IMG/VR virus record: IMGVR_UViG_3300008516_002040
Coordinates: 1 to 25,342 of that record
DNA length: 25,342 nucleotides
DNA from: a virus
Strand: one strand, 5' to 3'
Positions within the stretch are counted from its first letter, which is position 1, and the number at the start of each line of letters is the position of its first letter. The notes under the pieces are model-generated. The model was not told the origin of the DNA and searched no databases. It worked only from the letters and a program-made list of their open reading frames with translations. Position numbers and translations under genes: made by a program. Of the stretch, positions 2,149 through 22,029 are shown piece after piece.

Positions 2149-4340
2149 GGCAGATACCCTCGCCTCTTCAGCTCATCGATCACGTCCTGCCCCGCCCGAT
2201 CGGGATCCGGCGAGTTGATGTTGATGTTTTCGATCCTCACCCAAGTCTTCGGCCCCCCAACCGCGCCGCCCGTAGTGGATACCGCTTCCATCGCCCCCGG
2301 CTCCATGCCTTTGAGCATTGGAGGAGGCATGCCCATCGCGGCCAAGTCCATCATGCGCTGTCGGTCGGCCAATCGTAGCTCAAGAGTGGTGCCAAAGAGC
2401 TGCTTCCCGAACTCGGTGATGTCCCCTACGATGCTGGCAATTTGCTCAGGCGGCAGTATGCCCCGCACATAGGGGGTGACCGCCCCGGGCTCCCCGAGCG
2501 TGCCAAAGAAGTCCTTGCCCCACTCGGTCATCTCCTGGAAGAACTCCTTGGGGCGCTTGCCCGTGATGAGGAACAGCAGCCCATACTCACCTTTGCCGAA
2601 CTTCGCCAGGACGTCCAGGAGGTCGGCGATCGTGCCGACCCACTTTCCCAGATTCTCCAATCCTTCCGTCTCCGACAGCTCCTCCGAGAGCAGGCGCATA
2701 CTCTCTCGGAATGTCTCTCCCTTCTCGCTGCCCAGCCAGAGCGATGCCGCCAGCCCGCCGATGCCCAGCCCCGCCAGAAACGCCGGCAACCCGATGGCTC
2801 CGATCGCGCTCACCAGAGGCGCTAGGCCCATGGCCAGCGGCCCTATCGCGGCCAGCGCCAGACCCATCTGCACGACGACCCCCTGTACATCCGGGTCGAG
2901 ATCGGCGAACTTGCCCGCCAGAGTCTCCACCACGGTGATCAGAGGGGTTGCCTGGTCTATCAAATCCTTCAAGATGGGCAGTAAGGGATCTCCTATGGTG
3001 ATGGCCACAGTCTTGAGCCGGTTCAGTAGGATCTTCAACTGCTCCTCGGTGGTCCCGTATCTTTCGGCCGCTTCCTTTGATAGGGCAATATTCTCTCCAA
3101 AAGCCTCCGATCCCAGGTTCATCGCATCTCGCAACAGAGGACCCGCGCGCGCAAGGCCCAGCATGGCCATACTTACTCGACTCTCGGACAGCCCCAGCTC
3201 ATCCAGCACGAGGAAAAGGCTTTCCCCCCGTTCCTCTACTCGCCCCAATCCCTCGACAAAGGCGACAATGGCCGCCGCTGCATCCCTCTCAAACACGTCC
3301 CGAAACTCGCTCACATTCATGCCAGCGATCTCGGCGAACTTCTTGAGCTTCTTCGGGTCTAGCGCTTTCCCCTGGGTCGCCTCCAACTGGGCCAGCATCT
3401 CCTCCGTGGCCTCGAGCTCGTCCCTATACTTGTCCATCCTCAGTTGGTTGGCCATCCGGGTCGATTCGGCCGTCTTGTCCGTAAACTCACTCTCTCGCTG
3501 CGCTCCGATCGCCAACTGGCTATTGAGCAGGTCCAGTTTGGCCTGCTGTTTGGCGATCGCCTCTGTGTTGTCCACCATCCCGATCGTGGCCGATGCGACC
3601 GTGCTGGCTATGTCGATCATCACCCGAGAGAAAGCCGAGCCACCCGCCTGGGCTTGCATGCCCACGGTCGACAGCGCCGCAGCTATACCCAGAATCTGCG
3701 CCTCGGTCAGTCCTATCACCGAGCCGGCTCCGGCCAGGCGCAGCCCCATGGTCACAATCTCCGACTCTGTGGTCTTGAAGTTGTTCCCCAGGGCCACCAC
3801 CGCACTGCCCAACTCATCAAACTTGTCCTCTGGCATCCCGGTGATGGTGGCCAGTCGCGCCAGCGCCACCGCTGCCTCAGTGGAAGACAGATCGGTCGAG
3901 ACGCCCAGATTGATCATGGTCTCGGTAAAGTCCAGCAGATAGTCCTTGCTGATGCCCAACTGCCCGGCCGCCTCCATCACGGCCGCGATCTCCTCCGGGG
4001 TCGCAGAGATCCGCTTGGACATGTCGATGATGCCCGTCTCCAAGACCGCGTACTCCTCTTCGGTGGCGTCCACCGTCTTGCGCACGCCGGCGAACGCGGT
4101 CTCAAAGTCGGCGGCCGCCTTGACCACCAGGGCGCCGAGTCCCAGAATAGGCGCGGTCACTTTCAAGGAGAGTTGTTTCCCCACGGCACTCATTTTCTGG
4201 CCGACAACCTTGAGCCCAGCAGAGAGCCGGGTTTCGATATTCTGCTGCGCCTTCTTCAGATCTTGATTGAGCTGGGTCAGATCCGCCGATATGGGAATCC
4301 GGGCCCTACCGAGGATTGATTCAGATCCCCTAGCGACCAT
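2145..4340 (-). CDS. tail tape measure protein, TP901-type
   Basis: A 731-aa protein that sets tail length. The TP901 core runs from about residue 75 to 440: FETAFAGVRKTVDATEEEYA, KRISATPEEIAAVMEAAGQL, GVSTDLSSTEAAVALARLAT and SLFLVLDELGLSESRVSMAM. A coiled-coil segment (about 259-326) interrupts this core. Long hydrophobic stretches follow (VVVQMGLALAAIGPLAMGLA and FLAGLGIGGLAASLWLG, about 488-537). At roughly 0.15 nm per residue (the usual rule) the tail would be near 110 nm. GGGAGAG precedes the ATG. The C-terminus is Pro/Met-rich and the stop overlaps the minor tail gene as GTGA. Confidence 0.9.
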   Translation of the reverse strand: MVARGSESILGRARIPISADLTQLNQDLKKAQQNIETRLSAGLKVVGQKMSAVGKQLSLKVTAPILGLGALVVKAAADFETAFAGVRKTVDATEEEYAVLETGIIDMSKRISATPEEIAAVMEAAGQLGISKDYLLDFTETMINLGVSTDLSSTEAAVALARLATITGMPEDKFDELGSAVVALGNNFKTTESEIVTMGLRLAGAGSVIGLTEAQILGIAAALSTVGMQAQAGGSAFSRVMIDIASTVASATIGMVDNTEAIAKQQAKLDLLNSQLAIGAQRESEFTDKTAESTRMANQLRMDKYRDELEATEEMLAQLEATQGKALDPKKLKKFAEIAGMNVSEFRDVFERDAAAAIVAFVEGLGRVEERGESLFLVLDELGLSESRVSMAMLGLARAGPLLRDAMNLGSEAFGENIALSKEAAERYGTTEEQLKILLNRLKTVAITIGDPLLPILKDLIDQATPLITVVETLAGKFADLDPDVQGVVVQMGLALAAIGPLAMGLAPLVSAIGAIGLPAFLAGLGIGGLAASLWLGSEKGETFRESMRLLSEELSETEGLENLGKWVGTIADLLDVLAKFGKGEYGLLFLITGKRPKEFFQEMTEWGKDFFGTLGEPGAVTPYVRGILPPEQIASIVGDITEFGKQLFGTTLELRLADRQRMMDLAAMGMPPPMLKGMEPGAMEAVSTTGGAVGGPKTWVRIENININSPDPDRAGQDVIDELKRRGYLP

Positions 4341-5211
4341 TATCTCTCCCTACATATTCATGCTGCCAGACATCGACTGGCTTTGTGCCCTTCGAACCAT
4401 TACAGTGAGCACAAGCCGTAACTAGGTTCGCCCTTGTGTGTGGTCCCCCTTTCGCCAGAGGAATGACATGATCCAGGGTCAAGTTCTCGGTGGCACCGCA
4501 ATACACGCACCGATAGCCATCACGCTCGAAGATCGACTCGCGATCCACGGATTCGTAAACCACCTGCGCCAATCGAGCACGGCGTTTTAGGTGTCCCCGA
4601 CGATCACAGGCTCTTGCTTTCTCTGGATTAGCTTCGCGCCAGCGCCTGAGTCCCGCCCTCCTCTCATCGGGATGGGCATCGCGCCAGCGTTTGCTTTTGG
4701 CTCTCCTCTTGTCAACATTGGCCTCGTAATGGCGCTTCTGTATCACCTTCACTTTACCGGGATTAGCCTCACGCCATCGCTTTGCTCTTGCCGCCATCTT
4801 GTCGCGATTGGCCTCGCGATAGAGCTTATGTCTCGCCCTCTCCTTATCGGGATGGGCTTCACGATAGCGTTTCTGTATTGCCCTCACCTTGTCGGGATTG
4901 GCCTCACGCCATCGTTTGGCTTGCGCCGCCGCTCGGTCACGATGAGTTTCATAATATCGTTTGCTTCTCGCCCTGTTCTCCGCGCGATGGGCTTCATAGT
5001 ATCGCTTGCGTCTCGCCCTCTCATTGTCGGGGTTCGCCTCACGCCTGCGTCGGGCGAGCGCTGCAGCTTGTTCTCTGTGAGCATCATGATAAGCTCTGTT
5101 GTATGTGCTTAGACACGATTGGCAAATATAGTCACCCCGCCGCTGATGCCCCAGCGTCCAGTTGTCCCCAGGTACGAGCTCAGTCCCGCACTTACGGCAG
5201 TATCGCGTCAC
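4330..5211 (-). CDS. HNH homing-type endonuclease with a 15-aa repeat array
   Basis: A 293-aa protein in three parts. Residues 1-35 form a zinc ribbon (YCRKCG and YICQSC: C5, C8, C30, C33). Residues 40-204 are eleven tandem 15-residue units of the type R-W-R-E-A-N-P-D-K-x-R-A, strongly basic and helical, probably contacting DNA. Residues 228-276 are an HNH nuclease: YRCVYCGATENLTLDHVIPL, NLVTACAHCNGSKG (C235, C238, H248, N262, C267, C270). It starts with GTG and AAGAGGA about 8 bases upstream, overlaps the chaperone stop as GTGA, and overlaps the tape measure start by 11 bp. I infer a free-standing homing endonuclease inserted without breaking a gene. Confidence 0.85.
   Translation of the reverse strand: MTRYCRKCGTELVPGDNWTLGHQRRGDYICQSCLSTYNRAYHDAHREQAAALARRRREANPDNERARRKRYYEAHRAENRARSKRYYETHRDRAAAQAKRWREANPDKVRAIQKRYREAHPDKERARHKLYREANRDKMAARAKRWREANPGKVKVIQKRHYEANVDKRRAKSKRWRDAHPDERRAGLRRWREANPEKARACDRRGHLKRRARLAQVVYESVDRESIFERDGYRCVYCGATENLTLDHVIPLAKGGPHTRANLVTACAHCNGSKGTKPVDVWQHEYVGRDNGR
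4600..5094 (-). repeat. tandem repeat, about 11 x 45 bp, inside the HNH gene
   Basis: Eleven consecutive 15-codon units encode residues 40-204. At DNA level the units share a core around the codons for REANPDK/YEAHRD but are diverged. The exact period of 15 residues with no phase slips suggests duplication followed by divergence. Copy number may vary between related phages. Confidence 0.8.
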
Positions 5212-7091: not shown

Positions 7092-7450
7092 GATCCGAGC
7101 TCCGCCGTAGCCTCGTACTGTCGCTCCAGGCAGTCGATCTCCAGATGGTGCCCGGCCCTCGAGGGTTCTCGCACCCCCAGAATCTCCACGATCACGCCAT
7201 CGCCCTCCACCTGATCGCCACGCTGCACGTCGCTATCCGCTGTCACATAAAGGACGTGCCTGATCTCTCTCTCCTCCCGCGCAGCCGGAGTCCGGTCCCC
7301 CGCCCGCTCGCCTCCACCGATTGGCCGCAGCCGCCCCTCTACCGTCCCCACCTCGTTGTAGGCTATGGCCCAGCCCCCCTGGCCATCGCTCAGCCGCTCT
7401 CGGCGGCGCACGGTGAACGTGTGATTGAGTAGTGCCTCGAAGAGTGTCAT
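7088..7450 (-). CDS. head closure / head-tail joining protein
   Basis: A 120-aa protein with the typical beginning of phage head-tail joining proteins: MTLFEALLNHTFTVRRRERL, then DGQGGWAIAYNEVGTVEGRL, and a strand-rich end with DQVEGDGVIVEILGVREPSR. It seals the connector after packaging. It lies between the adaptor and the gp10-like gene, as in HK97-like phages, with 4-base overlaps (ATGA and GTGA). Confidence 0.8.
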   Translation of the reverse strand: MTLFEALLNHTFTVRRRERLSDGQGGWAIAYNEVGTVEGRLRPIGGGERAGDRTPAAREEREIRHVLYVTADSDVQRGDQVEGDGVIVEILGVREPSRAGHHLEIDCLERQYEATAELGS

Positions 7451-8049
7451 ATCCGGTACCTGTTCAACAGTTCCTTCTCGCTACGCAATAGCACCGGCGC
7501 AGCGCTGGCCCCCAGCACCCCTCCGGTGCCCCCGCCTGCCTCTCCCCCGTAGGATACCGAATAGTCGCCCAGCCCTATTGCCGTCACTCCCGGCACCGCA
7601 CCCGTCTCCGCTGACTTCAACCCCGCTTGATAGGCCCTGGCTGCCGCCCGGGTGCATATGGCCACTACATCGTCAGGGATCGGATCGTGCCCGTGCGTGT
7701 AGGTGACCGTGACGATCTGAATGCCACTGGCCCAGTTCTGACCGATCCGATGCAGGATCCCGTGCTGGCCGAGCTGATAGTCGTCGGCCTCCACCAGTAC
7801 CTCGCCATCCTCGATGACCCCCGAGATCGCCGTCACCGGCAATTCAGGCAGAAACAGCCGTCTGTCTCCTGCCGAATCCAGGGTGATCTCGTCGTCCTCC
7901 ACTTCTTCGATCTGCTGGCGGCAATAGTTCTGGATGGCCACCGACGCCTCCAGGATTGCCCGATCCGCTGCGTCGATAGATGCAGCGGGGACGATCTCGA
8001 TTTGCAGAAACTGTTCCAGATCCACGACGCTACCAAATATGGCTGTCAT
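7447..8049 (-). CDS. head-tail adaptor / connector protein (gp6-like)
   Basis: A 200-aa protein that should bind below the portal. The helical N-terminus (VDLEQFLQIEIVPAASIDAA, then ILEASVAIQNYCRQQIE) and the strand-turn middle (GDRRLFLPELPVTAISGVIE, then YQLGQHGILHR and VTVTYTHGHDPIPDDVVAIC) follow the gp6/gp15-like connector pattern. It is first in the usual head-tail block, followed by head closure and tail completion genes. ATGA overlaps occur on both sides. The assignment is by gene order and pattern. Confidence 0.75.
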   Translation of the reverse strand: MTAIFGSVVDLEQFLQIEIVPAASIDAADRAILEASVAIQNYCRQQIEEVEDDEITLDSAGDRRLFLPELPVTAISGVIEDGEVLVEADDYQLGQHGILHRIGQNWASGIQIVTVTYTHGHDPIPDDVVAICTRAAARAYQAGLKSAETGAVPGVTAIGLGDYSVSYGGEAGGGTGGVLGASAAPVLLRSEKELLNRYRI

Positions 8050-8159
8050 CCTGCGTTCACCTTGTCAGGTTTTGGGTGTTGCGCCTTGTTCCTTAATGGT
8101 CCCCGAGCCTTGTTTGGCCTCTTACGCCGAGCTTTCTTATCAAAGGGCTTAGCCATCAT
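8046..8159 (-). CDS. 37-aa highly basic peptide, coupled to both neighbours
   Basis: A short ORF between the 211-aa gene and the head-tail adaptor: MMAKPFDKKARRKRPNKARG, continuing to a KPDKVNAG end. Fourteen of its 37 residues are Lys or Arg. Evidence that it is real: its ATG overlaps the upstream stop as ATGA, its stop overlaps the next ATG as ATGA, and an AGGAGG-type site lies 6 bases before the start. The adjacent ATG at 8156 is an equally good start, giving 36 aa. Function unknown; a nucleic-acid binder or capsid-bound basic peptide is possible. Confidence 0.55.
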   Translation of the reverse strand: MMAKPFDKKARRKRPNKARGPLRNKAQHPKPDKVNAG

Positions 8160-8791
8160 CGCCGCCCTCCTCTCCTGAGTTGCCTCTGCCACTGCTTCAA
8201 GGTCTTTTCCTCCTCCCCTGGCTTACAGCGCACGTAGCGCCCAGGAGCTATCTCCACCCTCACCAGATTGCTCCGCCGGCCGTGGCGCCCAACGGGCCGC
8301 TCCTTGGGCCGCCTCTGCACTTCGCTCGACCATGTGCGGGGCAGCGCCAGGAACAGCGGCTTCACCCGATACACCGCCCGCAGGAATGCCAACCGTGCCG
8401 AAGGTCCGCCATCCACCATCTCCTGCTCCCAGGCTGCCAGCAGCGCACGGCCATCGGGGCTATCCCGCACGAACAGCAGCTCGTGGGCGTACAGCAACAC
8501 CCTCAGATCTCGTGTGATCTTCTGTGTGCGTTTCTGCTCCGCTGGTGTACCCACATCGGCGGCCACTTTCCCATATCGCCACAGCGGCGCTGCCGCATCC
8601 CACCGCTCTAGGAAGTGGAATCCATGCCCCACCAAGTCCCACGGCACGATCGTGCCCGGCGCCACGATCAGCGCGCGGTCGAACTGTGTCTCGGCCAGAC
8701 TGCCATCGGCGACCACTACCTCCAGCCTATACCTCTTGGCCTGCGCCTGGACCTGTTTGTCTGGCTCACGCAGGATCAGCACGTCCTTCAT
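8156..8791 (-). CDS. unknown 211-aa protein of the glycan cassette
   Basis: I do not recognise this family. The product begins MKDVLILREPDKQVQAQAKR and has a mixed alpha/beta core (FDRALIVAPGTIVPWDLVGH, WDAAAPLWRYGKVAADVGTP, DLRVLLYAHELLFVRDSPDG). The C-terminus (LVRVEIAPGRYVRCKPGEEE) is very basic (KQWQRQLRRGGRR). A longer frame from 8863 lies inside the methyltransferase gene, so I prefer the ATG at 8791 with its ATGA overlap. No membrane segment or signal peptide is seen. It could be a glycan-related enzyme or a head protein; the basic tail suggests contact with DNA or an acidic surface. Confidence 0.6.
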   Translation of the reverse strand: MKDVLILREPDKQVQAQAKRYRLEVVVADGSLAETQFDRALIVAPGTIVPWDLVGHGFHFLERWDAAAPLWRYGKVAADVGTPAEQKRTQKITRDLRVLLYAHELLFVRDSPDGRALLAAWEQEMVDGGPSARLAFLRAVYRVKPLFLALPRTWSSEVQRRPKERPVGRHGRRSNLVRVEIAPGRYVRCKPGEEEKTLKQWQRQLRRGGRR

Positions 8792-9240
8792 TTGCAGACC
8801 CGCAATGTCACGATGATGGATGACCTCTGGTCGTTCAGCCTGGGCCCTTTGACGAATGCCCATTTGCGCCCGGTGTAGAATCCAAGCTCCTTCCCCAACT
8901 TCGTCTGAGGATTGAAAACGTCGAAGCAGCGCAAACTATACCGCCATTGATGCGTCGGATCGGCATAGGCGTTATCGTGCTGCCAATGGGGCACTTTGAC
9001 CCGCAGCGTTCCCTTTGGACGCAGAATCCGCCAGCATTCATCCAGAGCCATCACCAGGTCAATCTTCAGATGCTCGAACACCGAGGAGGCTGCAATCTGG
9101 TCAAAACTGCCGTCCTTCCACGGCCAGGGCAATATGTTCAGGTCGTGGGCCACGTCGATCTCCGGGCGATGCTTGTGCAGGTCATGGTTCACCGCGCCCC
9201 TCCAGATATGATTGCCCGCACCGAGGTTCAGGATTCTCAT
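8788..9240 (-). CDS. class I SAM-dependent methyltransferase (small)
   Basis: A 150-aa protein with a Rossmann-type beginning, MRILNLGAGNHIWRGAVNHD. LNLGAGN is motif I for S-adenosylmethionine, and D-L (about residues 20-21) ends the second strand. FDQIAASSVFEHL and ECWRILRPKGTLRVKVPHWQ match the later methyltransferase-11-type motifs. In a sugar cassette it may methylate a glycan or sulfated residue, which is inference. ATGA overlaps exist at both ends. Confidence 0.8.
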   Translation of the reverse strand: MRILNLGAGNHIWRGAVNHDLHKHRPEIDVAHDLNILPWPWKDGSFDQIAASSVFEHLKIDLVMALDECWRILRPKGTLRVKVPHWQHDNAYADPTHQWRYSLRCFDVFNPQTKLGKELGFYTGRKWAFVKGPRLNDQRSSIIVTLRVCK

Positions 9241-9959
9241 AACTGCTCATCCGCCAGGCAATAGGCCAATTCACTTTGCGCTACGGCCTTTTGCACCTCA
9301 TTCCAATTCAGAAGAATCTCCCGAAGCGGATGAGGATTGATAGCCCTCAGCCGACAACTCATTATCAGTGGTGACACGCCCAGAAAGCTGCAAAGCCGCC
9401 TCGATGTTGGCGGAGGTATACTTGTTGCATCTATTCCCTCCCCCCCTACAAGATCCGCATAGGTTATTTCCAAAAGGCTCGCAAATACTTGGCACCGCTC
9501 GTGTGCACCTACAGTCGCCTCCCTATAGCTCCGCGCACGTCTCAATAGCACCTTGGGCGCCAACCTCATTCGGGCTTTTAGCGAGCTGCCCATGCTATGC
9601 GGAGGCTGCTGAATCTTCCCCTGTTTGTTCATCTTGGCGAGCATTATCTCCACGATTTGACGGATGACATTCTCACGAGATAGAAGGAGTACCCTTGGTT
9701 GCATGCCGGTCAGGTATTCCCAGAATGGGCCAAAAGCTTCCCTTCGGGTCAATTCACACATACTGACCGCATAGAACGGTTGATGCAGTAGACAGTGGAG
9801 TAGATCAACGCTTATGAATCTTCCCCACACGCTTCTGGTGTGCATTGGTTCGCCACGACAGCAGAATATATCCGGGTGATTGCTCAGACAATGCGTCAAA
9901 AACGTGCTGCCCGATCGCGCTTGAGAAATGATGAGAGCGGGTCGTGGCTCGAAGATCAT
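9237..9959 (-). CDS. sulfotransferase family protein
   Basis: A 240-aa protein starting MIFEPRPALIISQARSGSTF. The ARSGSTFL loop (about 14-21) is the 5'-phosphosulfate-binding motif of PAPS-dependent sulfotransferases, and RVLLLSRENVIRQIVEIM matches the 3'-phosphate-binding region with R and S/N residues. I infer sulfation of a glycan hydroxyl, supported by three glycosyltransferase genes next door; protein or lipid acceptors remain possible. I chose the ATG at 9959 for its ATGA overlap and a GGAAG upstream; an in-frame start at 10019 would sit inside the previous gene. It may not be fully typical: the C-terminal region is less conserved-looking than the N-terminus. Confidence 0.75.
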   Translation of the reverse strand: MIFEPRPALIISQARSGSTFLTHCLSNHPDIFCCRGEPMHTRSVWGRFISVDLLHCLLHQPFYAVSMCELTRREAFGPFWEYLTGMQPRVLLLSRENVIRQIVEIMLAKMNKQGKIQQPPHSMGSSLKARMRLAPKVLLRRARSYREATVGAHERCQVFASLLEITYADLVGGEGIDATSIPPPTSRRLCSFLGVSPLIMSCRLRAINPHPLREILLNWNEVQKAVAQSELAYCLADEQL

Positions 9960-10561
9960 CGCTTCCAACTGCGCCTCCCCTCGCCGATATGCTCCGCCAG
10001 CGGCAAGGCGCATAGCCACCGCCCAGCCTCATTGAGCGCTGCGCACACTCGATGGTCATACTTATGAGAATTGTCCGGGATCAGCGATTCGATCTCTCCC
10101 CACAAACCAGGCCGGAACGACCAGTTGGCGCCAGGTACCGTACGCCGTACCAGGACCACCTGTCCCCCGATGACCTTGGTGCTGAGCACCGGCGACCAGT
10201 GATAGGCCGGCTCGATACTGAGCGTGCAGATCGCCACGTCCGCTGGTGCAGCTCGCCAGAACGCCACCAAGTGCTCCAGCCACCGATCGTGATACTCATA
10301 GTCATCGCCGCTAAGGAGGACCAGCTCTGGCCGACGATTCAGGGCCAGGCCCACTGCCGCCCGAACTCCGTGCCCGATGCTATGATTGCCCGTCTTATTG
10401 CACACCCCGCCGCGCTGGACTACCAATGCCTCCGTGCCATCGGATGACCCATTATCGTAGAACACGAGCTCCAACGGCAAAGTCGAGCGATCCAAACTCT
10501 TGACAGTGCGCTTCCACAGAGCACGTCGATTGTAGCTCAGCACAGCCGCCACCACTTTCAT
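9956..10561 (-). CDS. glycosyltransferase family 2
   Basis: A compact 201-aa GT-A protein. It opens with MKVVAAVLSYNRRALWKRTV, a typical GT2 start, then LVFYDNGSSDGTEALV (the D-N-G-S nucleotide-sugar motif) and VLLSGDDYEYHDRWLEHLV, where D-D fills the DxD position. The C-terminal part (WSFRPGLWGEIESLIPDNSH) is consistent with an acceptor region. It is shorter than many GT2 enzymes but covers the catalytic domain. ATGA overlaps join it to the genes on both sides. Substrate unknown. Confidence 0.8.
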   Translation of the reverse strand: MKVVAAVLSYNRRALWKRTVKSLDRSTLPLELVFYDNGSSDGTEALVVQRGGVCNKTGNHSIGHGVRAAVGLALNRRPELVLLSGDDYEYHDRWLEHLVAFWRAAPADVAICTLSIEPAYHWSPVLSTKVIGGQVVLVRRTVPGANWSFRPGLWGEIESLIPDNSHKYDHRVCAALNEAGRWLCALPLAEHIGEGRRSWKR

Positions 10562-11247
10562 CGCTTATACACCTGCCAGTGATGAAGCATCAGAAGCCAG
10601 ACCATGACTATCTCCAGCATACCGCCCAACGTCAGAGACGATCGCCCCGCCCAATAGCTGATAGGAACCTCTTGCACCGTCATTCCAAGCTCTCGTGCCC
10701 GGGCCAGCACCTCGATCTGCCATGCGTGCATCTTCGCCCGATAATTCAGCTTCAGTAGTTCCTTCACTATCGAAGCAGAATAAACGCGGTATCCACTGGA
10801 CCAATCTCGTATCCAGAGACCACCTTGGGCCAAATTACACAACAGCCCAACCAACCGACTGCCCAACCGCTTCCACCAAGACCCGCCTAAATAGAGACTC
10901 TGCGATAGAAAGCGAGAGCCGATCACCAACTCCGCATTTCCTCCCAGCAGTCTCCACATCTCCGGTGCAGCGTGTGAGCCACCCGCATCCATCACCACAA
11001 CGCGCTCTGCTCCGCACTTGAGAGCCGCACGCCAGCCATCTCTGATTGACCTACCGATGCCCTCAGATGTCGCATGACGGATAACATCCGCACCCGCAGC
11101 CCAGGCCAGCTTCCCTGTTCCATCTCCGGAGCCGTCGTCTACCACGATCACTGGCCCGAATTGCTTGGCTGCGGCGACCAACATACCGATCGTGCCCACT
11201 TCGTTGAGGGCCGGAATCACTATCACGATACTTGCACCACCACTCAC
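10558..11247 (-). CDS. glycosyltransferase family 2, polyprenol-phosphate mannosyl/glucosyltransferase-like
   Basis: A 229-aa GT-A enzyme. It has IVIVIPALNEVGTIGMLV, a nucleotide-binding VVDDGSGDGT (D37, D38), VVMDAGGSH in the DxD position (D87 followed by A-G, so the second Asp is missing), WSSGYRVYSASIV and VQEVPISYWAGRSSLTLGGM. These are features of dolichol/polyprenol-phosphate sugar synthases. A hydrophobic segment near 208-222 might touch the membrane. It starts with GTG preceded by AGGAGA and overlaps both neighbours by 4 bases. Possibly it charges a lipid carrier, or transfers directly to a virion or host glycan. Confidence 0.8.
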   Translation of the reverse strand: MSGGASIVIVIPALNEVGTIGMLVAAAKQFGPVIVVDDGSGDGTGKLAWAAGADVIRHATSEGIGRSIRDGWRAALKCGAERVVVMDAGGSHAAPEMWRLLGGNAELVIGSRFLSQSLYLGGSWWKRLGSRLVGLLCNLAQGGLWIRDWSSGYRVYSASIVKELLKLNYRAKMHAWQIEVLARARELGMTVQEVPISYWAGRSSLTLGGMLEIVMVWLLMLHHWQVYKR

Positions 11248-13061
11248 CGACGTCTCCTGCGCTGGCTCCCACTAGGTCCCCGCCCCTCGAACCGCCGTAC
11301 CATCCTCCAGGCCTCCGGGCTGTCGATGCGCCCAGGAATCATCCCTTTCCATCGCCTAGCATCGCCCGGATAGTGCATCAGACCCGCCGTCTTGATGCCC
11401 CGCGTGTATTTGGGGAACGTATTCCATTCGTTGCCCAACACCAGCACCTTAAGTGGGTCGCTATACAACGCCCGAATCAAGGCCCCCTGGTCTCGCTGGG
11501 CGTGCTTCTCCCATGCAATCTGCCACCGCCTGAAAAAGGCCGCTATCCGCTTGCTCCGACCGAATGCCCATACACCCCCGTTCAACTGGAGAGTGTGCAG
11601 AGTGCTCACCGTCTTCTCGGTCTCGGCCAGCTCCCGCTTGTTGTAGCGACGCTCGAATGAGTGCATCGTGTCCATCAAGTGGGGATCTTTGCAGATCACG
11701 AACTCCCAGCCATCCTCGATCCACTCAAAGTAGCGGTAGATCGGCGCCACTAGCTCGGTGTCTGCATCCAGATAGAGCACCGCCCCCCACTCAGCCGGGC
11801 TCAGTTCGTATGCCTTGAGTTTGGCCCGGCGCCCACCCACGTCGCTGTCAGGCTGCACGATCAGCAAGTCCTCTGGTCCGATCTTCCGGTCCGAGCACAG
11901 GGCGATGGGGATGTCCGGCATGTATTTCTTGATGCTCTTCATCAGACGCAAAGCGCACGTCCGCGCCGGATCGCCAAAGGCCACGCAGTAGATCCCACGC
12001 GTCTTCCCCGTTCCTTGCTCCACAGGTGGTCGAAGATGCACAGCCTCGATCTCCTCATCGGGGATCTTGATAGGCTGTACCATCGTAACAGTCGCATCCT
12101 CCTCGAGGCCGCCGTTCACCCGTTCCTCGACTCGCTCAGCCATCAACCCCCTGAATGCCCTCATGTGATCTTCACACCATGCCTCCACCGAGTAACCCTC
12201 CGTCACCGCTCGCAGTGCCTCTCGATCCACGTCGCCCCGCGCTTTGACCGCCTTGCCCAACGCCTTGATCAGACTCGTCACATCGCCACGCTCATAGCGA
12301 TGGATGCCCAGCGTCTGGGGCAACTCGTCCAGTATGCCCACCCCGCGCGGCACGACAACACTCACTCCGCAGGCCAGCGCCTCCAGAGGGGGCATCGGGA
12401 TCCCCTCCACCCGCCCGGTGGCCACCAGCACATCCAAGGACTGGTAGAATCCAGGCATGTCCGCCCAGGCGTATCGCGTGGTCGGCACTGGCCAACCCCG
12501 CCCGCTCGCTTTCCATTCCACTCGCTGCCCGATCGCAGACTTGAGCAGCGCGATTGCCAGGTCCTGGCCCTTCCGCTTGTTGACGTAGGTGTAGCCCGAG
12601 AGCCCCACGACCGGGCACTTGCGCCCCTTCTCCCACTTTGGCCGAAGGCCACTTTCAGTTTGCGCGATCACGAAGCGATCACGCTCGATGGGCGGGGCCA
12701 CCTGGACGGTCGGCCCATACTTCCGCAACGCATCGGCGTACATCCGGCACGTGGCCACGCGCAGCTGCACCCGCTCCGCCATCTGATCGTAGAGCCTGGC
12801 TTTCGCGTTTCGGGGAGGGAACTCCTCCCGATGGGTGAAATAAGCCGCCACCGGCACGCGGGGCCAGCGCTGCACCTTCTGCCCTTCAAAGTAGGCCAGC
12901 AGATACAGCGCGTCGGCCCCCCGCACATTGGGTGCCGCAGTCAACGACCATCCCAGCTGGTCCGCCAAGGCACGGGCCATCCGAGGAAGGACCCGATCCG
13001 CCTTATAGTTCCGGCAGACGACATTGACCCGTAGGGCTATCACTTTGTTCGCGGCACCCAT
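11244..13061 (-). CDS. two-domain glycosyltransferase (GT4-like plus GT8-like)
   Basis: A 605-aa protein with two predicted catalytic domains. The first (about 8-310) is GT-B type: VVGLSGYTYVNKRKGQDLAI and an E-x7-E motif in VEGIPMPPLEALACG (E219, E227). The second (about 355-590) is GT-A type: YCVAFGDPARTCALRLMKSI, a DxD in VLYLDADTEL (D432, D434), LNGGVWAFGRSKR and RDQGALIRAL, as in GT8-like nucleotide-sugar transferases. It should move sugars from nucleotide donors onto an acceptor; sugar and acceptor are unknown. GGGGAG precedes the ATG, and the end overlaps the next gene as GTGA. The stretch at residues 134-141 is encoded by a 24-bp dispersed repeat and may be an insertion. Confidence 0.8.
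   Translation of the reverse strand: MGAANKVIALRVNVVCRNYKADRVLPRMARALADQLGWSLTAAPNVRGADALYLLAYFEGQKVQRWPRVPVAAYFTHREEFPPRNAKARLYDQMAERVQLRVATCRMYADALRKYGPTVQVAPPIERDRFVIAQTESGLRPKWEKGRKCPVVGLSGYTYVNKRKGQDLAIALLKSAIGQRVEWKASGRGWPVPTTRYAWADMPGFYQSLDVLVATGRVEGIPMPPLEALACGVSVVVPRGVGILDELPQTLGIHRYERGDVTSLIKALGKAVKARGDVDREALRAVTEGYSVEAWCEDHMRAFRGLMAERVEERVNGGLEEDATVTMVQPIKIPDEEIEAVHLRPPVEQGTGKTRGIYCVAFGDPARTCALRLMKSIKKYMPDIPIALCSDRKIGPEDLLIVQPDSDVGGRRAKLKAYELSPAEWGAVLYLDADTELVAPIYRYFEWIEDGWEFVICKDPHLMDTMHSFERRYNKRELAETEKTVSTLHTLQLNGGVWAFGRSKRIAAFFRRWQIAWEKHAQRDQGALIRALYSDPLKVLVLGNEWNTFPKYTRGIKTAGLMHYPGDARRWKGMIPGRIDSPEAWRMVRRFEGRGPSGSQRRRRR
12640..12663 (-). repeat. 24-bp dispersed repeat, copy in the two-domain glycosyltransferase
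   Basis: Core GGCCGAAGGCCACTTT on the plus strand, followed by CAGTTTGC. It matches the portal copy at 22 of 24 positions and the protease copy at 21. It contains a small hairpin (TGGCC-TTC-GGCCA read on the coding strand). Confidence 0.7.
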
Positions 13062-13075
13062 TGCTCCCCTGGCGT

Positions 13076-14386
13076 CTAGGTGCCCGCCGTCAGGTCAACC
13101 AGAATGAAGCCCGACGGACGGATCACGCCAAACGCCGCCCTCATCTCGGCCAGGATGGCCACCATGTTCCGGATGAAGAAATCCTCGTGGCTGTCCGAGA
13201 CAGAGATATTGGCTCGCTCCCTGTCCCACACCACGGCCTTTCTCCAGTCGCCCAGCAAGGCGCTTCCCTGCGTCATCCGTGTGTTCTGCACCACCGGATA
13301 GCCCCAGAGCGTCCGGGTTCCCAGACGAAGCGGCCCGCCAAAGTAGAACAGCCCATTGGTGGCTGTAAGCAGATCGATCGTCTCCCAATCCGACGGATGC
13401 ATGACCCACGCTGTCGGCATAGCCCGTCCGGTCACCATCAGGGTTGTGATGGCCTGGCGGGTGGTGGTCAGGATGTCGGTGTTCCACACCTGAGCCAGTA
13501 TCCCAGCGGTGTTGAGCAGGCCGGTAAAGTTCTCCCCGACCCCGTTCCCGTTGAGAAGCTGGTCCTCAAACTCCTCGGCCAGATCGTCGCGCAACTCAGA
13601 GTCGATGATGCCCCGAATCTGAGCCGCATCCGACAATGCTCGCTTCGTCGCCGGGATCCAGACTGCGATGGTCTTGACCGGTTCGCTTACCTGCTCGAAC
13701 TCCATCGCGCCTTCCGGCTTCTCGCCGGAGACTTCCCCTGTGGCCCCCGAATACTCGGTCACGTTGGCCTCAGGCACCGGGGTCGCCTGAGTGATCTGCA
13801 GCACCTGACGCACAAAGTAGATCAGATCGCTCGTGGTTTGCCGGATGGTGACCAAGCTACGGAGATTGAGTGGAAGCCGACCAAGCGGCTCATAGATGCC
13901 CGTGTAGTCAGGGGTTATAAACGCCCCCGCACTGGTCGGATCGGCTCCGGTGATCAGATCCTTTTGCAAGCCCAGAAGCGACTTGAACTCGACGGGGGGA
14001 GAAGTTAGCCCCCTGGCGCCTTCAGGTATGCGCCCGCCTGGAGCGACCTGCTTCATCCAGGCCTTGAACGCTGGCGCGTTCACAAACTGCGCGCCGATCG
14101 TTGCGCCCCTTTGCGCGGCCAGACCACCAACGGCTTGTGGATCGCCGCCGCCGTTCCCGCCCAGCTCCAAGCCCGCGCCCAGATCCAAGACTGCCTTGCG
14201 CAATGCCTCGTCGCCCTCGGCCGCCTTGATCTTCTCTTTCCACTGGCCAGCTTCCGTCAGATAGCCGGCCACCTTCTGCCGCTCCTCGTCGGTGAAGTCA
14301 CGTTTGGCTTCATCCGCCGTATCGCAGATCGCCTTCCCGGCCAGCAAAGCCGCCTGCAGTTTTCCTTTCAGTTCTTTGAGGTTCAT
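13076..14386 (-). CDS. major capsid protein, HK97 family
   Basis: The 436-aa shell protein has an N-terminal helical, charged delta domain (about residues 1-75, MNLKELKGKLQAALLAGKAI) that acts as built-in scaffold, then a Gly-rich linker and the HK97-fold shell. Diagnostic stretches are TSAGAFITPDYTGIYEPLGR, AMEFEQVSEPVKTIAVWIPA and FEDQLLNGNGVGENFTGLLN. Cleavage by the neighbouring protease probably falls between the linker and TSAGAF. GAGGGGG precedes the ATG and the gene starts 2 bases after the protease stop. It is complete, with no frameshift. The next gene, 14 bases downstream, begins the accessory cassette rather than the usual connector genes. Confidence 0.95.
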   Translation of the reverse strand: MNLKELKGKLQAALLAGKAICDTADEAKRDFTDEERQKVAGYLTEAGQWKEKIKAAEGDEALRKAVLDLGAGLELGGNGGGDPQAVGGLAAQRGATIGAQFVNAPAFKAWMKQVAPGGRIPEGARGLTSPPVEFKSLLGLQKDLITGADPTSAGAFITPDYTGIYEPLGRLPLNLRSLVTIRQTTSDLIYFVRQVLQITQATPVPEANVTEYSGATGEVSGEKPEGAMEFEQVSEPVKTIAVWIPATKRALSDAAQIRGIIDSELRDDLAEEFEDQLLNGNGVGENFTGLLNTAGILAQVWNTDILTTTRQAITTLMVTGRAMPTAWVMHPSDWETIDLLTATNGLFYFGGPLRLGTRTLWGYPVVQNTRMTQGSALLGDWRKAVVWDRERANISVSDSHEDFFIRNMVAILAEMRAAFGVIRPSGFILVDLTAGT

Positions 14387-15396: not shown

Positions 15397-16110
15397 CTAG
15401 GCGGACACAGCCCTCGTTACGTCCGCAGTGATCTTGACTCTGCTCTCGGTCAACGTAGACACGATACCGGCTATCAGCACCTGTACATCATAGTACAGAC
15501 TCACCGGCCGCAACTTCGCTGTCTCCACAGCCTTCAGCACGATAGTGATGTCGCCAGCATCCTCATCATCGACCGTGAGCGATCCATTGCCAGCAGTGCC
15601 CTCAGCCCCATTCAGACGCTCCAGGCCTTCCGCTTCGGTGATCTGTACGATCGCCGACGTGTCAGCATCACCCTTGCTGCGCTTGACTGTGAACCAGAGT
15701 TTGGTGCGACCAGCAAGGCTGCCCAGACCGGTGAGTGAGATGGAGACGTCGTCGCCGCGATGGACCGTGATGCGGCTACCCTCCAGCGCCGCCTGAATCT
15801 CAGCCGCTGTCTGGGTCAGTGTTCTGGGGACGTACCCCCAAATCTCGCTTGCTCTCGCATCGTCTAAGGGCACCACCCTCATCGTTGCGAAAGCAGCTTT
15901 TACACCGTCTTCCATGAAGAGCATCGGCCAAGTACCAGCGGTATCGAAGTCATATTCCAGGTAGTACAAGCCGTCGCTGATCTCGGTCAGCGTCTGGAGC
16001 GCAGTCTTCACCAATGAGGGCGACCAGAGATAGGCAGTTACAGTCAATCCCGCCTGGAACCCAGTCGCCTTGTAGAAGATGCGCCCGGAACCGGTCGCAA
16101 AGATTTGCAC
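15397..16110 (-). CDS. structural protein with BppU-like C-terminal domain
   Basis: A 237-aa protein starting at GTG with AGGAG about 8 bases upstream. Residues 1-85 resemble the Ig-like N-terminal domain of the previous gene (GLYYLEYDFDTAGTWPMLFM). Residues 112-237 (ITVHRGDDVSISLTGLGSLA, LWFTVKRSKGD, YYDVQVLIAG, ITADVTRAVS) have the strand pattern of the BppU N-terminal domain that anchors baseplate or fibre proteins. I infer an anchor for a receptor-binding or decoration structure. The similarity is by pattern, not alignment. Confidence 0.6.
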   Translation of the reverse strand: MQIFATGSGRIFYKATGFQAGLTVTAYLWSPSLVKTALQTLTEISDGLYYLEYDFDTAGTWPMLFMEDGVKAAFATMRVVPLDDARASEIWGYVPRTLTQTAAEIQAALEGSRITVHRGDDVSISLTGLGSLAGRTKLWFTVKRSKGDADTSAIVQITEAEGLERLNGAEGTAGNGSLTVDDEDAGDITIVLKAVETAKLRPVSLYYDVQVLIAGIVSTLTESRVKITADVTRAVSA

Positions 16111-16137
16111 TCGGTTCTCCTCTTAGCGAATCAGGAA

Positions 16138-17055
16138 CTAGCCCACCATTGCCGGTGACGAGTATACGTCAAGCTGATCGCTGAGGGTCTTCAGACTGTC
16201 ACCATCTGCCCCGCGAATACCACCCGTTGCACCCGTGGCTGTGTCGATAGCAGCAGTGTCCACCAAGATGTCATCCACGATGCCATCAATCACCCCAACC
16301 TCAGTGTCTACAGTGGTCAGCGCCGCAGCAGTTGCCACAGCCCCCGTGAGGTATCCCATTTCCGTGTCGTACTCGCTCGCCGGGGCGGGGGAAGCTGGTA
16401 TGTTATCAGTCTTGGCTTTGACCTGCTTGGATATTGACACTATGCTGGTTCCACCCACGGTGTCGGTCTTCTTCCCGACAACGTCCCGCATCTGAGCATC
16501 CGTAGCGGCGTCCTCAGTGGGTACATCGTGGAACCCGTCAATGACCCCAACTTCTGTGTCAATGGTCTCGATCTCATTGTCCACAGTGGTCAGGGCAGAA
16601 GCGGTTGCCAAAGCTGTCGTTCCGAGAACATCAAGCTCGGCCTTTGTTGGAGCATCGTAGGTTCCAAGCTCGGTAGCAACTTCCGCAGGGGTGGCAGCTC
16701 CGTCCGCAGCAGTCTTGATGGCTCCCAGGCCATCTGTGACGTTATCAAGATCGGTCTGGATGCCATCCACGACAGTCTTGATGCCGAACTCGTCTACCGT
16801 TGCGACACGGAAGGCTTTGACAACTTCACCACCCCCACCATCCTTGTACATCAGAGCAATCCACTCGCCCGCCGCGTCCGGCGTGAACGTGGCATAGTAT
16901 CGGCCAGTCGTGCCGATCTCCGTCATCGCGGCTACGGATTTCGCACCGTCAAGGGCATGTGCCTCATCGTAAATGTCCATCTTGATGGTCAGACCAGTCG
17001 CAGCCGCTGCCGCCTGGTAGGTTACGATGATCGCAACTCCACTTTTGTAAGCCAT
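16138..17055 (-). CDS. fibre-like structural protein with repeated helical stalk
   Basis: A 305-aa protein. Residues 1-85 form an Ig-like beta domain with GRYYATFTPDAAGEWIALMY, a motif shared in outline with the next gene. Residues from about 86 to 300 are Ala/Thr/Asp/Val-rich with heptad-like spacing and an internal duplication: ALTTVDNEIETIDTEVGVIDG at 154-174 and ALTTVDTEVGVIDG at 245-258, with QVKAKTDNIPASPA between them. This looks like a trimeric fibre stalk. There is no C-terminal knob. The ATG has GGAGG upstream. Attachment to head or tail cannot be decided; the gene lies in the head block. Confidence 0.65.
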   Translation of the reverse strand: MAYKSGVAIIVTYQAAAAATGLTIKMDIYDEAHALDGAKSVAAMTEIGTTGRYYATFTPDAAGEWIALMYKDGGGGEVVKAFRVATVDEFGIKTVVDGIQTDLDNVTDGLGAIKTAADGAATPAEVATELGTYDAPTKAELDVLGTTALATASALTTVDNEIETIDTEVGVIDGFHDVPTEDAATDAQMRDVVGKKTDTVGGTSIVSISKQVKAKTDNIPASPAPASEYDTEMGYLTGAVATAAALTTVDTEVGVIDGIVDDILVDTAAIDTATGATGGIRGADGDSLKTLSDQLDVYSSPAMVG

Positions 17056-17079
17056 GACATTCCTCCGTTTGTCTGTTGC

Positions 17080-17556
17080 TCAGAAACTGACCTTGGCTGA
17101 AGGTAGTGCGTCGGTTTTGGATTTGATCGCGTCCACAATTCCGTCTATCGTGTCCTGCTTGCTCTCGTTCGCAAGCGTATTGCCCTCGTCGTCCTTGACC
17201 CTCAGATAGTCCGTCGCCGCAGCAGCAAAGAGAGAGTCGTACACATTCGCGTTCACAACCATGAAGTCCTTCCAAACTGGCAGGCACACATCCGTATCCA
17301 TGATGAGGACCGTCAGCCGTCCCTCTGTGTCTGTGTCGCCAGTGCCTAACGTCAGGGTGTACCACCCACCCTCTTTGTGCGTGAATGTGCGGCTGTCGCC
17401 CGTAAGGTCAACGAATGTGGTGCCATCATGCTTCATCAGCTCGGCGTGGTCAGCAGCAGCCAAAGTAATGCCCGTCTCAGGCGTCACCCCATCGCCCTTG
17501 TCCACGAACGGGCCAATCAGAACCGTGGCTGCCGTGTCGGCTTTGAGGAATTGCAC
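17080..17556 (-). CDS. phage structural protein with fibre-type N-terminal domain
   Basis: A 158-aa protein that starts at GTG with GGAGG 7-8 bases upstream. The sequence runs MQFLKADTAATVLIGPFVDK, then a DGVTPETGITL segment, a GGWYTLTLGTGDTDTEGRL strand pair and LPVWKDFMVVNANVYDSLF. This arrangement is familiar from small phage and metagenomic tail-associated proteins, which I cannot name further. The C-terminus (DTIDGIVDAIKSKTDALPSA) resembles the helical KTDNLPASPA stretches of fibre proteins and echoes the next gene. It could be a fibre adaptor or a truncated fibre. Confidence 0.6.
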   Translation of the reverse strand: MQFLKADTAATVLIGPFVDKGDGVTPETGITLAAADHAELMKHDGTTFVDLTGDSRTFTHKEGGWYTLTLGTGDTDTEGRLTVLIMDTDVCLPVWKDFMVVNANVYDSLFAAAATDYLRVKDDEGNTLANESKQDTIDGIVDAIKSKTDALPSAKVSF

Positions 17557-17557
17557 G

Positions 17558-18538
17558 CTACCTCCTCATTCTCATGTAGTGCATCATCTGAACAGCCACG
17601 CCTTCAGGCGGCCCTTCTGCCGTGTACGTGACCTGTATCTGCACCATGCCGACGTACATGGTGTTGCCCTTGGAGATATCGTTCTGCTCTACGTCGCAGT
17701 CGAGGTTCTGGATGTCGGTCCAAAGCCAAGCCCCCACCGTCTGGAATAGAAGATCAATCGTTGCACTCGGAGTTTGCCAAGTTGCGCCAGAAGTGGTACT
17801 ATAAACCCGACTCCCATCTGGATAGGCGTTCTCACCGCGCAATCGCCAAGCCACATAATTGCTTATGTCGCCGCTTGGCGCGCGAACCACCATTGCATAC
17901 ATTGTGCTTGCAGATAGGGCATATGGCGTTTCAAAGTCGCATATAATCCAGGCATTCTCTGTCGGCAAATCGGCTTCCAAAACAGTGCCAGTAGCGAGGT
18001 CGCCACCCGTTGGCTTGCCGTCTGACGTTGCTCGGATGCTAATTGTCAAATCCCCAGGGCTGAGGACCTTACGGCCATACATCTTGACCCCTGTAATAGA
18101 GTAGCCACCAGAGGTTGTAAAGGTCTGGGCAAGCCAGCTAGCCCCGTTAACGGTCTCTGTGCTAGTATCCCCACTTATCAAGCCCTGCTTGATTATTGGC
18201 GCATTCGTATCCCCCGTTATATCCTGCCACGCCTTCCACCCCGCCGTAACCCCAGGGGCTTCTACGTGGTCGTCCCCGTCGTCAGTGCCACCGAACACGG
18301 GCCGCAGGATCAGTTGGTCGTCAGCGTCGGAGTAGGCGTAGGCCCGAATCTCGACCTTGCTGATAGTGCCCAAATCTTCACCGACGCACTCATTGTCTAT
18401 GAGTTTCTGGATGTCGCCATCGGTGGTCGTCGAGGCGTAGTCTGTCTCAACGCCATCCACCATCTCGCCAGGGTTAGTTGACCACTCCTCAACTCCCTCG
18501 GCCCAGGCGTCGAACTCGTAGATGACTGTATCAGCCAT
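17558..18538 (-). CDS. beta-sandwich structural protein, probable decoration or fibre-type
   Basis: A 326-aa protein made of beta-strand-rich segments. A first part (about 1-110) reads MADTVIYEFDAWAEGVEEWS and ends around VEAPGVTAGWKAWQDITG. A central domain (about 125-275) has SWLAQTFTTSGGYSITGVKM, LTISIRATSDGKPTGGDLA and YAMVVRAPSGD, a pattern typical of galactose-binding-like jelly rolls in phage and surface proteins. The C-terminus returns to strand-rich sequence ending in MMHYMRMRR. No signal peptide or membrane segment is visible. The start at 18538 uses TGATG coupling; an upstream frame extension lies inside the previous gene. Its place between portal and protease suggests a head-attached protein, but that is inference. 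Confidence 0.6.
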   Translation of the reverse strand: MADTVIYEFDAWAEGVEEWSTNPGEMVDGVETDYASTTTDGDIQKLIDNECVGEDLGTISKVEIRAYAYSDADDQLILRPVFGGTDDGDDHVEAPGVTAGWKAWQDITGDTNAPIIKQGLISGDTSTETVNGASWLAQTFTTSGGYSITGVKMYGRKVLSPGDLTISIRATSDGKPTGGDLATGTVLEADLPTENAWIICDFETPYALSASTMYAMVVRAPSGDISNYVAWRLRGENAYPDGSRVYSTTSGATWQTPSATIDLLFQTVGAWLWTDIQNLDCDVEQNDISKGNTMYVGMVQIQVTYTAEGPPEGVAVQMMHYMRMRR

Positions 18539-18897
18539 CAGTCCACCCACTCTATCGTGAAGCCACAAGTCGGCGGTAGCTCAAAGAGCCCGTCACGCAA
18601 AGCCTGGATGTCCTTGACCCTGGCAGGCCATATCGGGCAGTTGTGCTCAAACCACGCGATCTGCTCGTCCGTCATCTTCTCGCCGAAGCGGTCACGGACT
18701 TTCGGGTAGACTCTCTTGGCTTGCATGACCAGACAGTGCCCGTACTTGCCAAGTTCAGGGTCCACGTCGTCCGTGTAGAACTTGCACCTGTCCTCGCCGA
18801 GAGAGATGCAGGGGTTCTCCCGCATGAAGCCACCAAGGTCTTCATGCAGGCAGCACACGCCGCAGTGCGCACACGAACCGCTTACGATCCAGGGCAT
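18538..18897 (-). CDS. Cys-rich protein, possible metal or Fe-S binder (YkgJ-like CxxCxxCC)
   Basis: A 119-aa protein with nine cysteines. The N-terminal SGSCAHCGVCC gives C-x2-C-x2-CC (C9, C12, C15, C16), followed by C30, C38 and C55. This resembles the YkgJ-type zinc/iron-chelating family (CxxCxxCC). C87 and C111 follow a helical middle section. It is preceded by AGAGGAAG, starts 6 bases after the portal stop, and its TGA overlaps the next ATG as TGATG. No role in virion assembly is known to me. It might be a virion component stabilised by metal or an enzyme-like accessory protein. The family call is tentative. Confidence 0.6.
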   Translation of the reverse strand: MPWIVSGSCAHCGVCCLHEDLGGFMRENPCISLGEDRCKFYTDDVDPELGKYGHCLVMQAKRVYPKVRDRFGEKMTDEQIAWFEHNCPIWPARVKDIQALRDGLFELPPTCGFTIEWVD

Positions 18898-21900: not shown

Positions 21901-22029
21901 GGTGCGGTACAGCGTCGCATAGTCATAGTAGTGCGTGTCATAGAGGCGGAGTCGCCCATAGAACACTGACGAGCTCCACCCCATCTCGAGATCGGCCAGC
22001 GCCCCTAGGCTCTGCACCACTGCCGGCAT
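18904..22029 (-). CDS. HK97-family portal protein, intein-split, with C-terminal MuF-like domain
   Basis: The precursor is 1041 aa. Residues 1-298 and 693 to about 800 form an HK97-family portal, the dodecameric ring through which DNA enters the prohead. Residues 299-692 are an intein. The region from about 820 to 1041 resembles the Mu F/SPP1 gp7 head morphogenesis domain, with NPREDHAALDG near 994-1004, a PNG-x-x-x-P-G-D-P stretch and a terminal NCQCSV. Splicing would join ATF to SNIREQ, restoring a conserved portal motif and giving a 647-aa portal-MuF protein. I chose the ATG at 22029 because GAGGGA sits 8 bases upstream and it forms a TGATG junction; an ATG at 22056 is the longer alternative. 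One of the 24-bp dispersed repeats lies in the MuF-like part. Confidence 0.9.
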   Translation of the reverse strand: MPAVVQSLGALADLEMGWSSSVFYGRLRLYDTHYYDYATLYRTQPNVRTCVDFLARNIAQLGLHVFRRVSETDRKRLREHPLAQLLGRPLPPEYKVTRYHLIQALMGDLGVYFNAFWLKVKPANGPKGLLRIPPSYVAVKGGLMPTRYEVTIGGKLLKVAPEGMVHFRGYNAESAILGLSPLETLRRVLAEEHAAGDYREAFWQNAARMGGIIERPVEAPMWGKPARERFKAEFEALYSGGDNSGKTAILEEGMVWKQNTFNAQESEYLTGRRLTREECARAYHIPLPMVGILEHATFCLPGHVAVFASGGPKPIAEVQAGDQVWSHIGDGFCLKRVMRSGQTGIDPILRIKTQNRTLEANPTHPVLVRRLVKVKGTPDPDAGAKIRAGQSRWHYEVQHVYVPASEIKRGDILVALKELPEGTPRQSIPRMEFFGLLLGDGNVYPERGAVSIARANDAAYMDHYRQVMQQEFRSFGKHGNGSTREGLETQPVTLVEGDRQTRFASVLAAEELAKLGFSGTAHTKRVPGWVFGASRAERLALLRGYLDSDGSVDKRGKISYSSCNQKLIEDVRHLCMGLGIPVNNAYHRLGQTVLPTGDIGDVDQWIITCSDPEANRMIGSHDPRYHGRLAQGKGWDKKGKDYPFARGRRSEPPAGCEYSRVVSIEQLPPEPVFDLEIEGTHNFVAAGIVVHNSNIREQHKNLYQDSLGPWLAMIEQDIEMQLLPDFPDTKGVYVEFNIQEKLQGSFDEQTKALQSAVGRPWMTADEARARMNLPSMGGDAEVLVVPLNVLVGGQASPRDSAPPKTVVQAKAAEGQVDTAYLPLRERHEAKWVEVLSGHFRRQGAAIVSRIKAKQFIGEIWFDGDRWNEELGADLLRLNLLTAGAWGQRVATELETEIDEELMLPWLSENARIAAEEINATTRDGVANGLQSESGLWPTEEEPRSAIQHLFELALGVRAAEIARSKVTTAANFGSQEAARQGGLKTKTWQVNSANPREDHAALDGTTVGIGELFPNGMKWPGDPSGGAEQVANCQCSVSFGR
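19220..19243 (-). repeat. 24-bp dispersed repeat, copy in the MuF-like part of the portal
   Basis: Core GGCCAAAGGCCACTTT followed by CACTTTGC. It is read in the same frame as the glycosyltransferase copy (QSESGLWP against QTESGLRP), although the host proteins are unrelated. Confidence 0.7.
19954..21135 (-). mobile_element. intein with LAGLIDADG (DOD) homing endonuclease in the portal gene
   Basis: A 394-codon in-frame insertion. It starts with Cys (CLPGHVAVFASGG, splicing block A), has an ANPTHPVLV block B with the conserved His (N replaces the usual T three residues before it), and ends with VFDLEIEGTHNFVAAGIVVHN (blocks F and G, terminal His-Asn) followed by Ser as +1 residue. The two endonuclease signatures are FFGLLLGDG and LRGYLDSDG, each ending in an acidic LAGLIDADG-type motif. 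All splicing residues appear present, so the element looks active for splicing. Homing activity is likely but cannot be proven from sequence. Confidence 0.93.

Follow-up and report, generated by a model that had tools for sequence, protein, structure and literature searches.

A glycan-modification cassette in a phage head operon

The 25,342-base virus record IMGVR_UViG_3300008516_002040, analysed over its whole length and hereafter called the window, is an operon of packaging, head and tail genes from a genome of siphophage type; all of its genes discussed here lie on the minus strand. Between its HK97-type major capsid protein (MCP) gene (13076..14386; PF05065, 1e-45; phrog_10, 2.4e-57) and its head-tail adaptor gene (7447..8049; phrog_442, 7.4e-32) sits a cassette of glycosyltransferase (GT) and glycan-modifying genes, for which the MCP is the upstream neighbour and a candidate acceptor, and the adaptor the downstream boundary. 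The order 3' of the MCP gene is a 605-amino-acid (aa) glycosyltransferase, two family 2 glycosyltransferases (GT2a and GT2b), a sulfotransferase, a methyltransferase, a 211-aa protein that we call U211, a basic 37-aa peptide, and the adaptor. Among isolates, the closest MCPs, at about 45-46%, belong to Mycobacterium phages, Charlie and Butters among them.

A 14-base gap separates the MCP stop (13076) from the first glycosyltransferase start (13061), and seven 4-base start/stop overlaps from 11247 to 8046 then join the cassette genes through to the adaptor: GTGA at 11247/11244, and ATGA at 10561/10558, 9959/9956, 9240/9237, 8791/8788, 8159/8156 and 8049/8046. An earlier note on this DNA had located the genes and overlaps in the same way, which we confirm, and had taken the overlaps to mean that the enzymes are made together with the virion proteins. 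The overlaps do support joint translation of the operon genes, but they are not specific to the cassette: head genes downstream of the adaptor are likewise joined (7450/7447, 7091/7088 and 6350/6347). We therefore regard the overlaps as the style of the whole operon and reject them as a hallmark of the cassette.

The 605-aa enzyme combines two catalytic domains. Its N-terminal half (12162..13061) matches the Pfam glycosyltransferase group 1 family Glyco_trans_1_4 (GT4, a GT-B fold; 2.5e-7) and holds an E219...E227 (EX7E) pair that is invariant in 19 relatives. The second domain (11244..12029) has no Pfam match, and its D432-x-D434, NGG and DQG motifs are invariant in relatives. Its AlphaFold2 model (predicted local distance difference test score, pLDDT, 92) matched alpha-1,3-GalT (GT6), LARGE1, glycogenin-2 and UGGT in a Foldseek search of the PDB (E about 1e-9); as modelled, it is a retaining GT-A fold of GT6/GT8-like type with a DxD motif, and we refer to it as GT8-like. 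A number of relatives encode the two domains in separate genes. Two relatives (L196 and L130) have two GT8-like genes in tandem behind the MCP gene, which suggests duplication within the cassette. At the level of sequence, tblastn found no match to the 605-aa enzyme at 1e-5 in 50,697 isolate phage records.

Of the enzymes that follow, GT2a (10558..11247) resembles GtrB and polyprenyl-phosphate-sugar synthases, matching PF00535 (1.9e-6), the GtrB-type phrog_841 (2.8e-10) and NF058614 (2.3e-20, below the model cut-off); it has no KD19 peak above 2.2, hence no clear transmembrane segment, and is absent from most relatives. GT2b (9956..10561) matches PF00535 (3.8e-10). The sulfotransferase (9237..9959) is Sulfotransfer_3/Stf0-like: its match to the Sulfotransfer_3 N-terminal motif (1.1e-4) scores 23.3 bits, below the Pfam cut-off of 27, and the same family was matched in all seven aligned members, the best at 1.3e-7. 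These seven share an RSGSTFL-like loop of the 5'-phosphosulfate-binding type for 3'-phosphoadenosine-5'-phosphosulfate (PAPS), with R15, G17 and L21 invariant, and an LxREN-like 3'-phosphate-binding motif, with L93 and R95 invariant. A PDB sequence search with the sulfotransferase returned sub-threshold matches only, and that of one relative (L058) had no isolate-phage match at E 0.01. The S-adenosylmethionine (SAM) methyltransferase (8788..9240; Methyltransf_11, 5.1e-8) is conserved across 22 aligned sequences and has six weak matches in isolate phages.

U211 (8156..8791) drew nothing from a PDB sequence search and has no relatives in the 50,697 isolate phage records. Its AlphaFold2 model (pLDDT 90) has as best Foldseek matches GT-A or nucleotide-diphospho-sugar/nucleotidyltransferase proteins (E 2.8e-4 in the PDB and 6e-6 among viral models, with template modelling scores below 0.55), and hhalign aligned it with the GT8-like domain (E 2e-5, probability 76%). 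The strand matching LYLDADT of that domain reads LIVAPGT in U211, and the invariant columns of the U211 alignment contain no DxD. U211 is therefore probably a GT-A protein without the metal site, acting as a scaffold or as a very divergent enzyme.

The 37-aa peptide (8046..8159) has a different background. In Mycobacterium phage Charlie a single 77-aa gene (gp7), whose product ends in KAKAPANKAKTPANKANG, fills the interval between MCP and adaptor, as an empty site would look; in relatives of the window, a small protein with gp7-like, KxRxPxxNK-like repeats is encoded between U211 and the adaptor. A profile of this small-protein family matches Charlie gp7 (2e-4) and the 37-aa peptide (0.005), both weakly and in a small target set. 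Apart from the peptide, U211 was the only window protein to score better than E = 1 against the profile; the match lies in the C-terminal tail of U211 (LVRVEIAPGRYV), and of 26 U211 proteins 17 reach the inclusion threshold. Going by the profile, the peptide is a short form of the native small protein encoded after the MCP in the head operons of ordinary phages, and we reject it as a cassette member, since the profile places it with the gp7-type head gene. The cassette thus looks inserted between the MCP gene and the native small head gene. U211, to judge from its tail, may carry a copied piece of that gene.

The earlier gene list is revised to this extent. The glycosyltransferases, including one gene with two catalytic domains (GT4 by Pfam, GT6/GT8-like GT-A by fold), the sulfotransferase and the methyltransferase do lie between MCP and adaptor; the basic peptide leaves the list as a putative native head gene, and the 211-aa protein that had been called unknown appears to be GT-A-like.

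Core and cargo among relatives

We collected relatives by scanning IMG/VR with the MCP, the glycosyltransferase, U211 and the GT8 domain, and by one scan of prokaryote genomes, which together gave 196 loci, 128 after deduplication. Wherever the whole MCP-to-adaptor interval was visible (47 loci), it contained GT4, GT8 and U211 (47/47). The methyltransferase is present in 39 of these 47 intervals and a sulfotransferase in 17, of which 14 belong to one family and 3 to a second Pfam family, Sulfotransfer_4. Across the family the intervals also hold GT2 enzymes, UDP-sugar dehydrogenase-like proteins, epimerases, a DegT-type aminotransferase and further methyltransferases, variable genes that resemble the content of O-antigen or capsule loci. 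The core is GT4 and GT8, usually the methyltransferase, and U211; GT2s and sulfotransferase count as dispensable cargo.

The closest relative, L055 (88% for the glycosyltransferase), is on a contig binned as Dehalococcoidia and has GT4 and GT8, GT2a, GT2b, methyltransferase and U211 without a sulfotransferase, as does L059. The rest of the L055 contig encodes an integrase, a replication initiator and a radical SAM protein (phrog_9298), so this phage is probably temperate. The prokaryote-genome scan yielded eight metagenome bins of mixed phyla, three of them Chloroflexota, and among 400 genomes from the phylum of one hit, G001, only G001 itself and one weak partial match were found.

The GC content at third codon positions is 0.55 in the window sulfotransferase and 0.61 in GT2a, against 0.76-0.78 in TerL, MCP, GT4, GT8 and U211. 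Because of this low value and its absence from L055 and L059, the sulfotransferase looks like a recent gain; the core is native to the phage. Between the window and L055, dN/dS is 0.12-0.33 for the shared cassette genes, near the 0.09-0.25 of structural genes, with GT2a and U211 slightly above the structural genes; the shared cassette genes are under purifying selection.

The core is physically tied to head genes

The MCP scan is unbiased towards the cassette, as the glycosyltransferase and U211 scans are towards the MCP. The MCP scan alone supplied 35 loci that, after deduplication, show 250 bp or more of sequence 3' of the MCP gene; in 33 of them a GT4 gene comes next, and the two that lack it have distant MCPs (46% and 35%). 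Over all loci, most of them contributed by the glycosyltransferase or U211 scans, 83 of 89 GT4 genes have an MCP gene at most 1 kb upstream, and a head-tail adaptor comes after 75 of 81 U211 genes. The core turns up in this position in dozens of contigs, so the set is far above what chance would give. Core protein distances track MCP distances (Mantel r 0.41-0.62), and the portal does about as well (0.54).

Five further contigs carry the same core inside other head operons, belonging to at least three other phage lineages. In L052 it lies between TerL (phrog_979) and portal (phrog_104); in L061, L192 and L054, from a lineage with portal, protease and MCP of phrog_29, it follows TerL of phrog_15 or precedes a portal of phrog_21; and in L050 it follows an MCP of phrog_1005. 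It follows that the core has passed between unrelated head modules and been retained in them. L050 also has, upstream of its different MCP, an open reading frame (ORF) of 1258 aa (L050:2-3775) that combines segments of methyltransferase, ATP-dependent ligase-like and head maturation protease type and may be a fusion or a polyprotein. No labelled cassette ORF (0/278) has a clear transmembrane segment at a KD19 cut-off of 2.2.

Several neighbouring genes of the window are unusual. The portal gene (18904-22056) encodes 1050 aa, against about 640 aa in most relatives, and is interrupted by an intein-like insertion that runs from CLPGHVAVFASGG to NFVAAGIVVHN, after which the portal sequence picks up again at SNIREQHKNLYQ. 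Directly before the tape measure gene lies a 293-aa HNH endonuclease-type gene (4330-5211; PF01844, 5e-13) with many KRWREANPDK-like repeats; HNH genes also occur between portal and protease in L012 and L024. Five window genes between portal and protease (15397-18897), one of them encoding a cysteine-rich protein of 119 aa, are missing in most relatives, with a 1.6 kb relative of the last in L055. These five could encode head fibres or decoration proteins, and thus possible glycan acceptors.

Discussion

We suggest that the cassette is probably a phage-encoded virion-glycosylation module within the late head operon, built from a conserved core and swappable decorating enzymes. This interpretation draws on the genes present, their folds and motifs and their fixed position, on the pattern of core and cargo, and on the lack of predicted membrane proteins and the purifying selection described above. 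For its expression, activity, acceptor, glycan structure, sulfation and biological benefit we infer the following. The cassette would probably be expressed together with the late head operon. The GT4 and GT8-like core enzyme, probably with U211 as partner or scaffold, would put a sugar primer or short chain on a new head protein in the cytoplasm, before or during head assembly; the MCP would be the likeliest acceptor, with another head, neck or tail protein possible. Cargo GT2s would extend the chain with further sugars, the core methyltransferase would cap or modify the glycan, and the PAPS-dependent sulfotransferase of the window would add sulfate. In other phages this decorating role would fall to uronic-acid dehydrogenases, epimerases, an aminotransferase or different methyltransferases. 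The particle would thereby gain a variable coat, charged in some cases, of possible benefit in receptor contact, stability or defence avoidance.

The earlier note had proposed a sulfated, possibly methylated sugar on capsid or fibre proteins. Position supports the virion-linked part of that proposal; the sulfotransferase and GT2s turn out to be optional cargo only, with no sulfotransferase in L055. The comparison of head operons that it recommended placed the cassette at a fixed site between MCP and adaptor throughout the main family, and again in the head operons of unrelated phages. We also looked among the relatives for the cassette in a host-surface locus, which the note had named as evidence to the contrary, and none of the loci examined lay in a surface-polysaccharide locus. 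The observation is thus real and more general than first seen, and a function in virion-linked glycosylation is well supported.

Several findings pull the other way. No acceptor signature emerged from the family: of 89 MCPs with a visible end, 57 finish in serine; many carriers do not and non-carriers, Charlie among them, do, and we reject a C-terminal serine as an acceptor mark because it is non-diagnostic. The same core occurs in phages with unrelated MCPs, so that a specific MCP site is not required. The sulfation gene and the GT2s are dispensable, missing from many relatives; and GT2a resembles GtrB, a surface-glucosylation enzyme. A bolder version of the module, which we put forward tentatively and would not yet favour, is a transferable virion-coat island in which a fixed initiating core docks on new head proteins while cargo is swapped as O-antigen genes are, giving variable, sulfated or uronic-acid coats, and in which U211, as a GT-A protein devoid of catalytic activity, would be held to the head by the tail copied from the small head protein.

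Other targets have to be weighed. It is possible, if rather unlikely, that the sugars go not to the MCP but to a minor virion protein of the tail, the neck or elsewhere, or to the small basic protein; this would still be virion decoration and overlaps with the module proposed above. The sharing of the core by phages with unrelated MCPs and the resemblance of the U211 tail to the small head protein fit such an acceptor, and tail tubes are also glycosylated in mycobacteriophages (PMC12363180, PMC12619734); adjacency to the MCP gene is nevertheless the most constant feature of the main family, though it is unable to name the acceptor.

Targets outside the virion seem less probable still. We consider it improbable that the enzymes alter the cell-wall or lipid-linked polysaccharide of the host late in infection, for receptor masking or superinfection exclusion in the manner of gtrABC. 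The matches of GT2a to GtrB-type phrog_841 and to polyprenyl-phosphate-sugar synthase models, the likeness of cargo enzymes to O-antigen and capsule genes, and the integrase on the L055 contig would all suit such conversion; yet most relatives lack GT2a, the cassette has no flippase, polymerase or membrane glycosyltransferase, and it is always found within head operons, including those of at least three unrelated head-gene lineages, where a host-surface module would have no reason to remain. Head operons are usually silent in lysogens. Glycosylation of modified bases in the phage genome, a known role of many phage glycosyltransferases (PMC12619734), appears very improbable here: neither the constant site between MCP and adaptor nor the presence of a sulfotransferase agrees with it, no base-hydroxylating gene was recognised in the ORFs of the window, an incomplete genome, and none was found by PHROG in ten large ORFs of the remaining L055 contig, some of which had no match at all.

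Virion glycosylation as a process is already known, so that the statement in the earlier note that known phage glycosyltransferases usually act on DNA or host surface is incomplete as a list. As cited in two papers, virion proteins of Che8, Corndog and Myrna are glycosylated with phage glycosyltransferases (Freeman 2023, via PMC12363180 and PMC11256854); a third paper, which cites the same study, puts mycobacteriophage glycans on the C-terminal ends of the capsid and tail tube proteins (PMC12619734), and Maravista, a relative of Che8, is described in PMC11256854 as having putative glycosyltransferase genes near the 3' end of its genome. The window resembles the first three in its phage-encoded glycosyltransferases and siphophage-type head operon, and its nearest isolate MCPs are mycobacteriophage proteins. 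Their acceptors are capsid and tail tube. The window system differs from the Che8 gp110 and Corndog gp38 type in its 605-aa enzyme and U211, which lack sequence matches among the isolate phage records, and from all three phages in being a multi-gene island between MCP and adaptor that joins a fixed core to a sulfotransferase and, among relatives, to sugar-nucleotide enzymes. Like the gtrABC seroconversion cassettes of temperate phages, it has one GtrB-like GT2, present in few relatives; unlike them, it lies in a head operon, has neither a GtrA flippase nor a membrane Gtr transferase, and its GT2 is optional in the family. The phage-borne sulfotransferase shares PAPS-binding motifs with Sulfotransfer_3/Stf0 enzymes, among them those of marine phages, but here stands within a glycan-building island beside the capsid gene; for those of OM43 phages the function was reported as "unclear" (PMC10580990). 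Chloroviruses and giant viruses are also reported to supply their own glycosyltransferases and sugar enzymes for capsid glycans, though these are eukaryotic viruses with unrelated capsids. New here are the modular build of the multi-enzyme island, the fact that it is conserved and has passed from one head operon to another, and the repeated occurrence of sulfotransferases.

In the literature surveyed, virion glycosylation in phages has so far been shown only for a few mycobacteriophages. The uncultured phages described here, a large family, have a modular locus beside the capsid gene, dedicated, on our reading, to glycans, the core of which has crossed into other head-gene lineages. This reading offers a testable role for phage sulfotransferases. 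If it is true, phage particles would have serotype-like surface variation, with consequences for receptor binding, for particle charge and stability, and for host defences that sense the virion.

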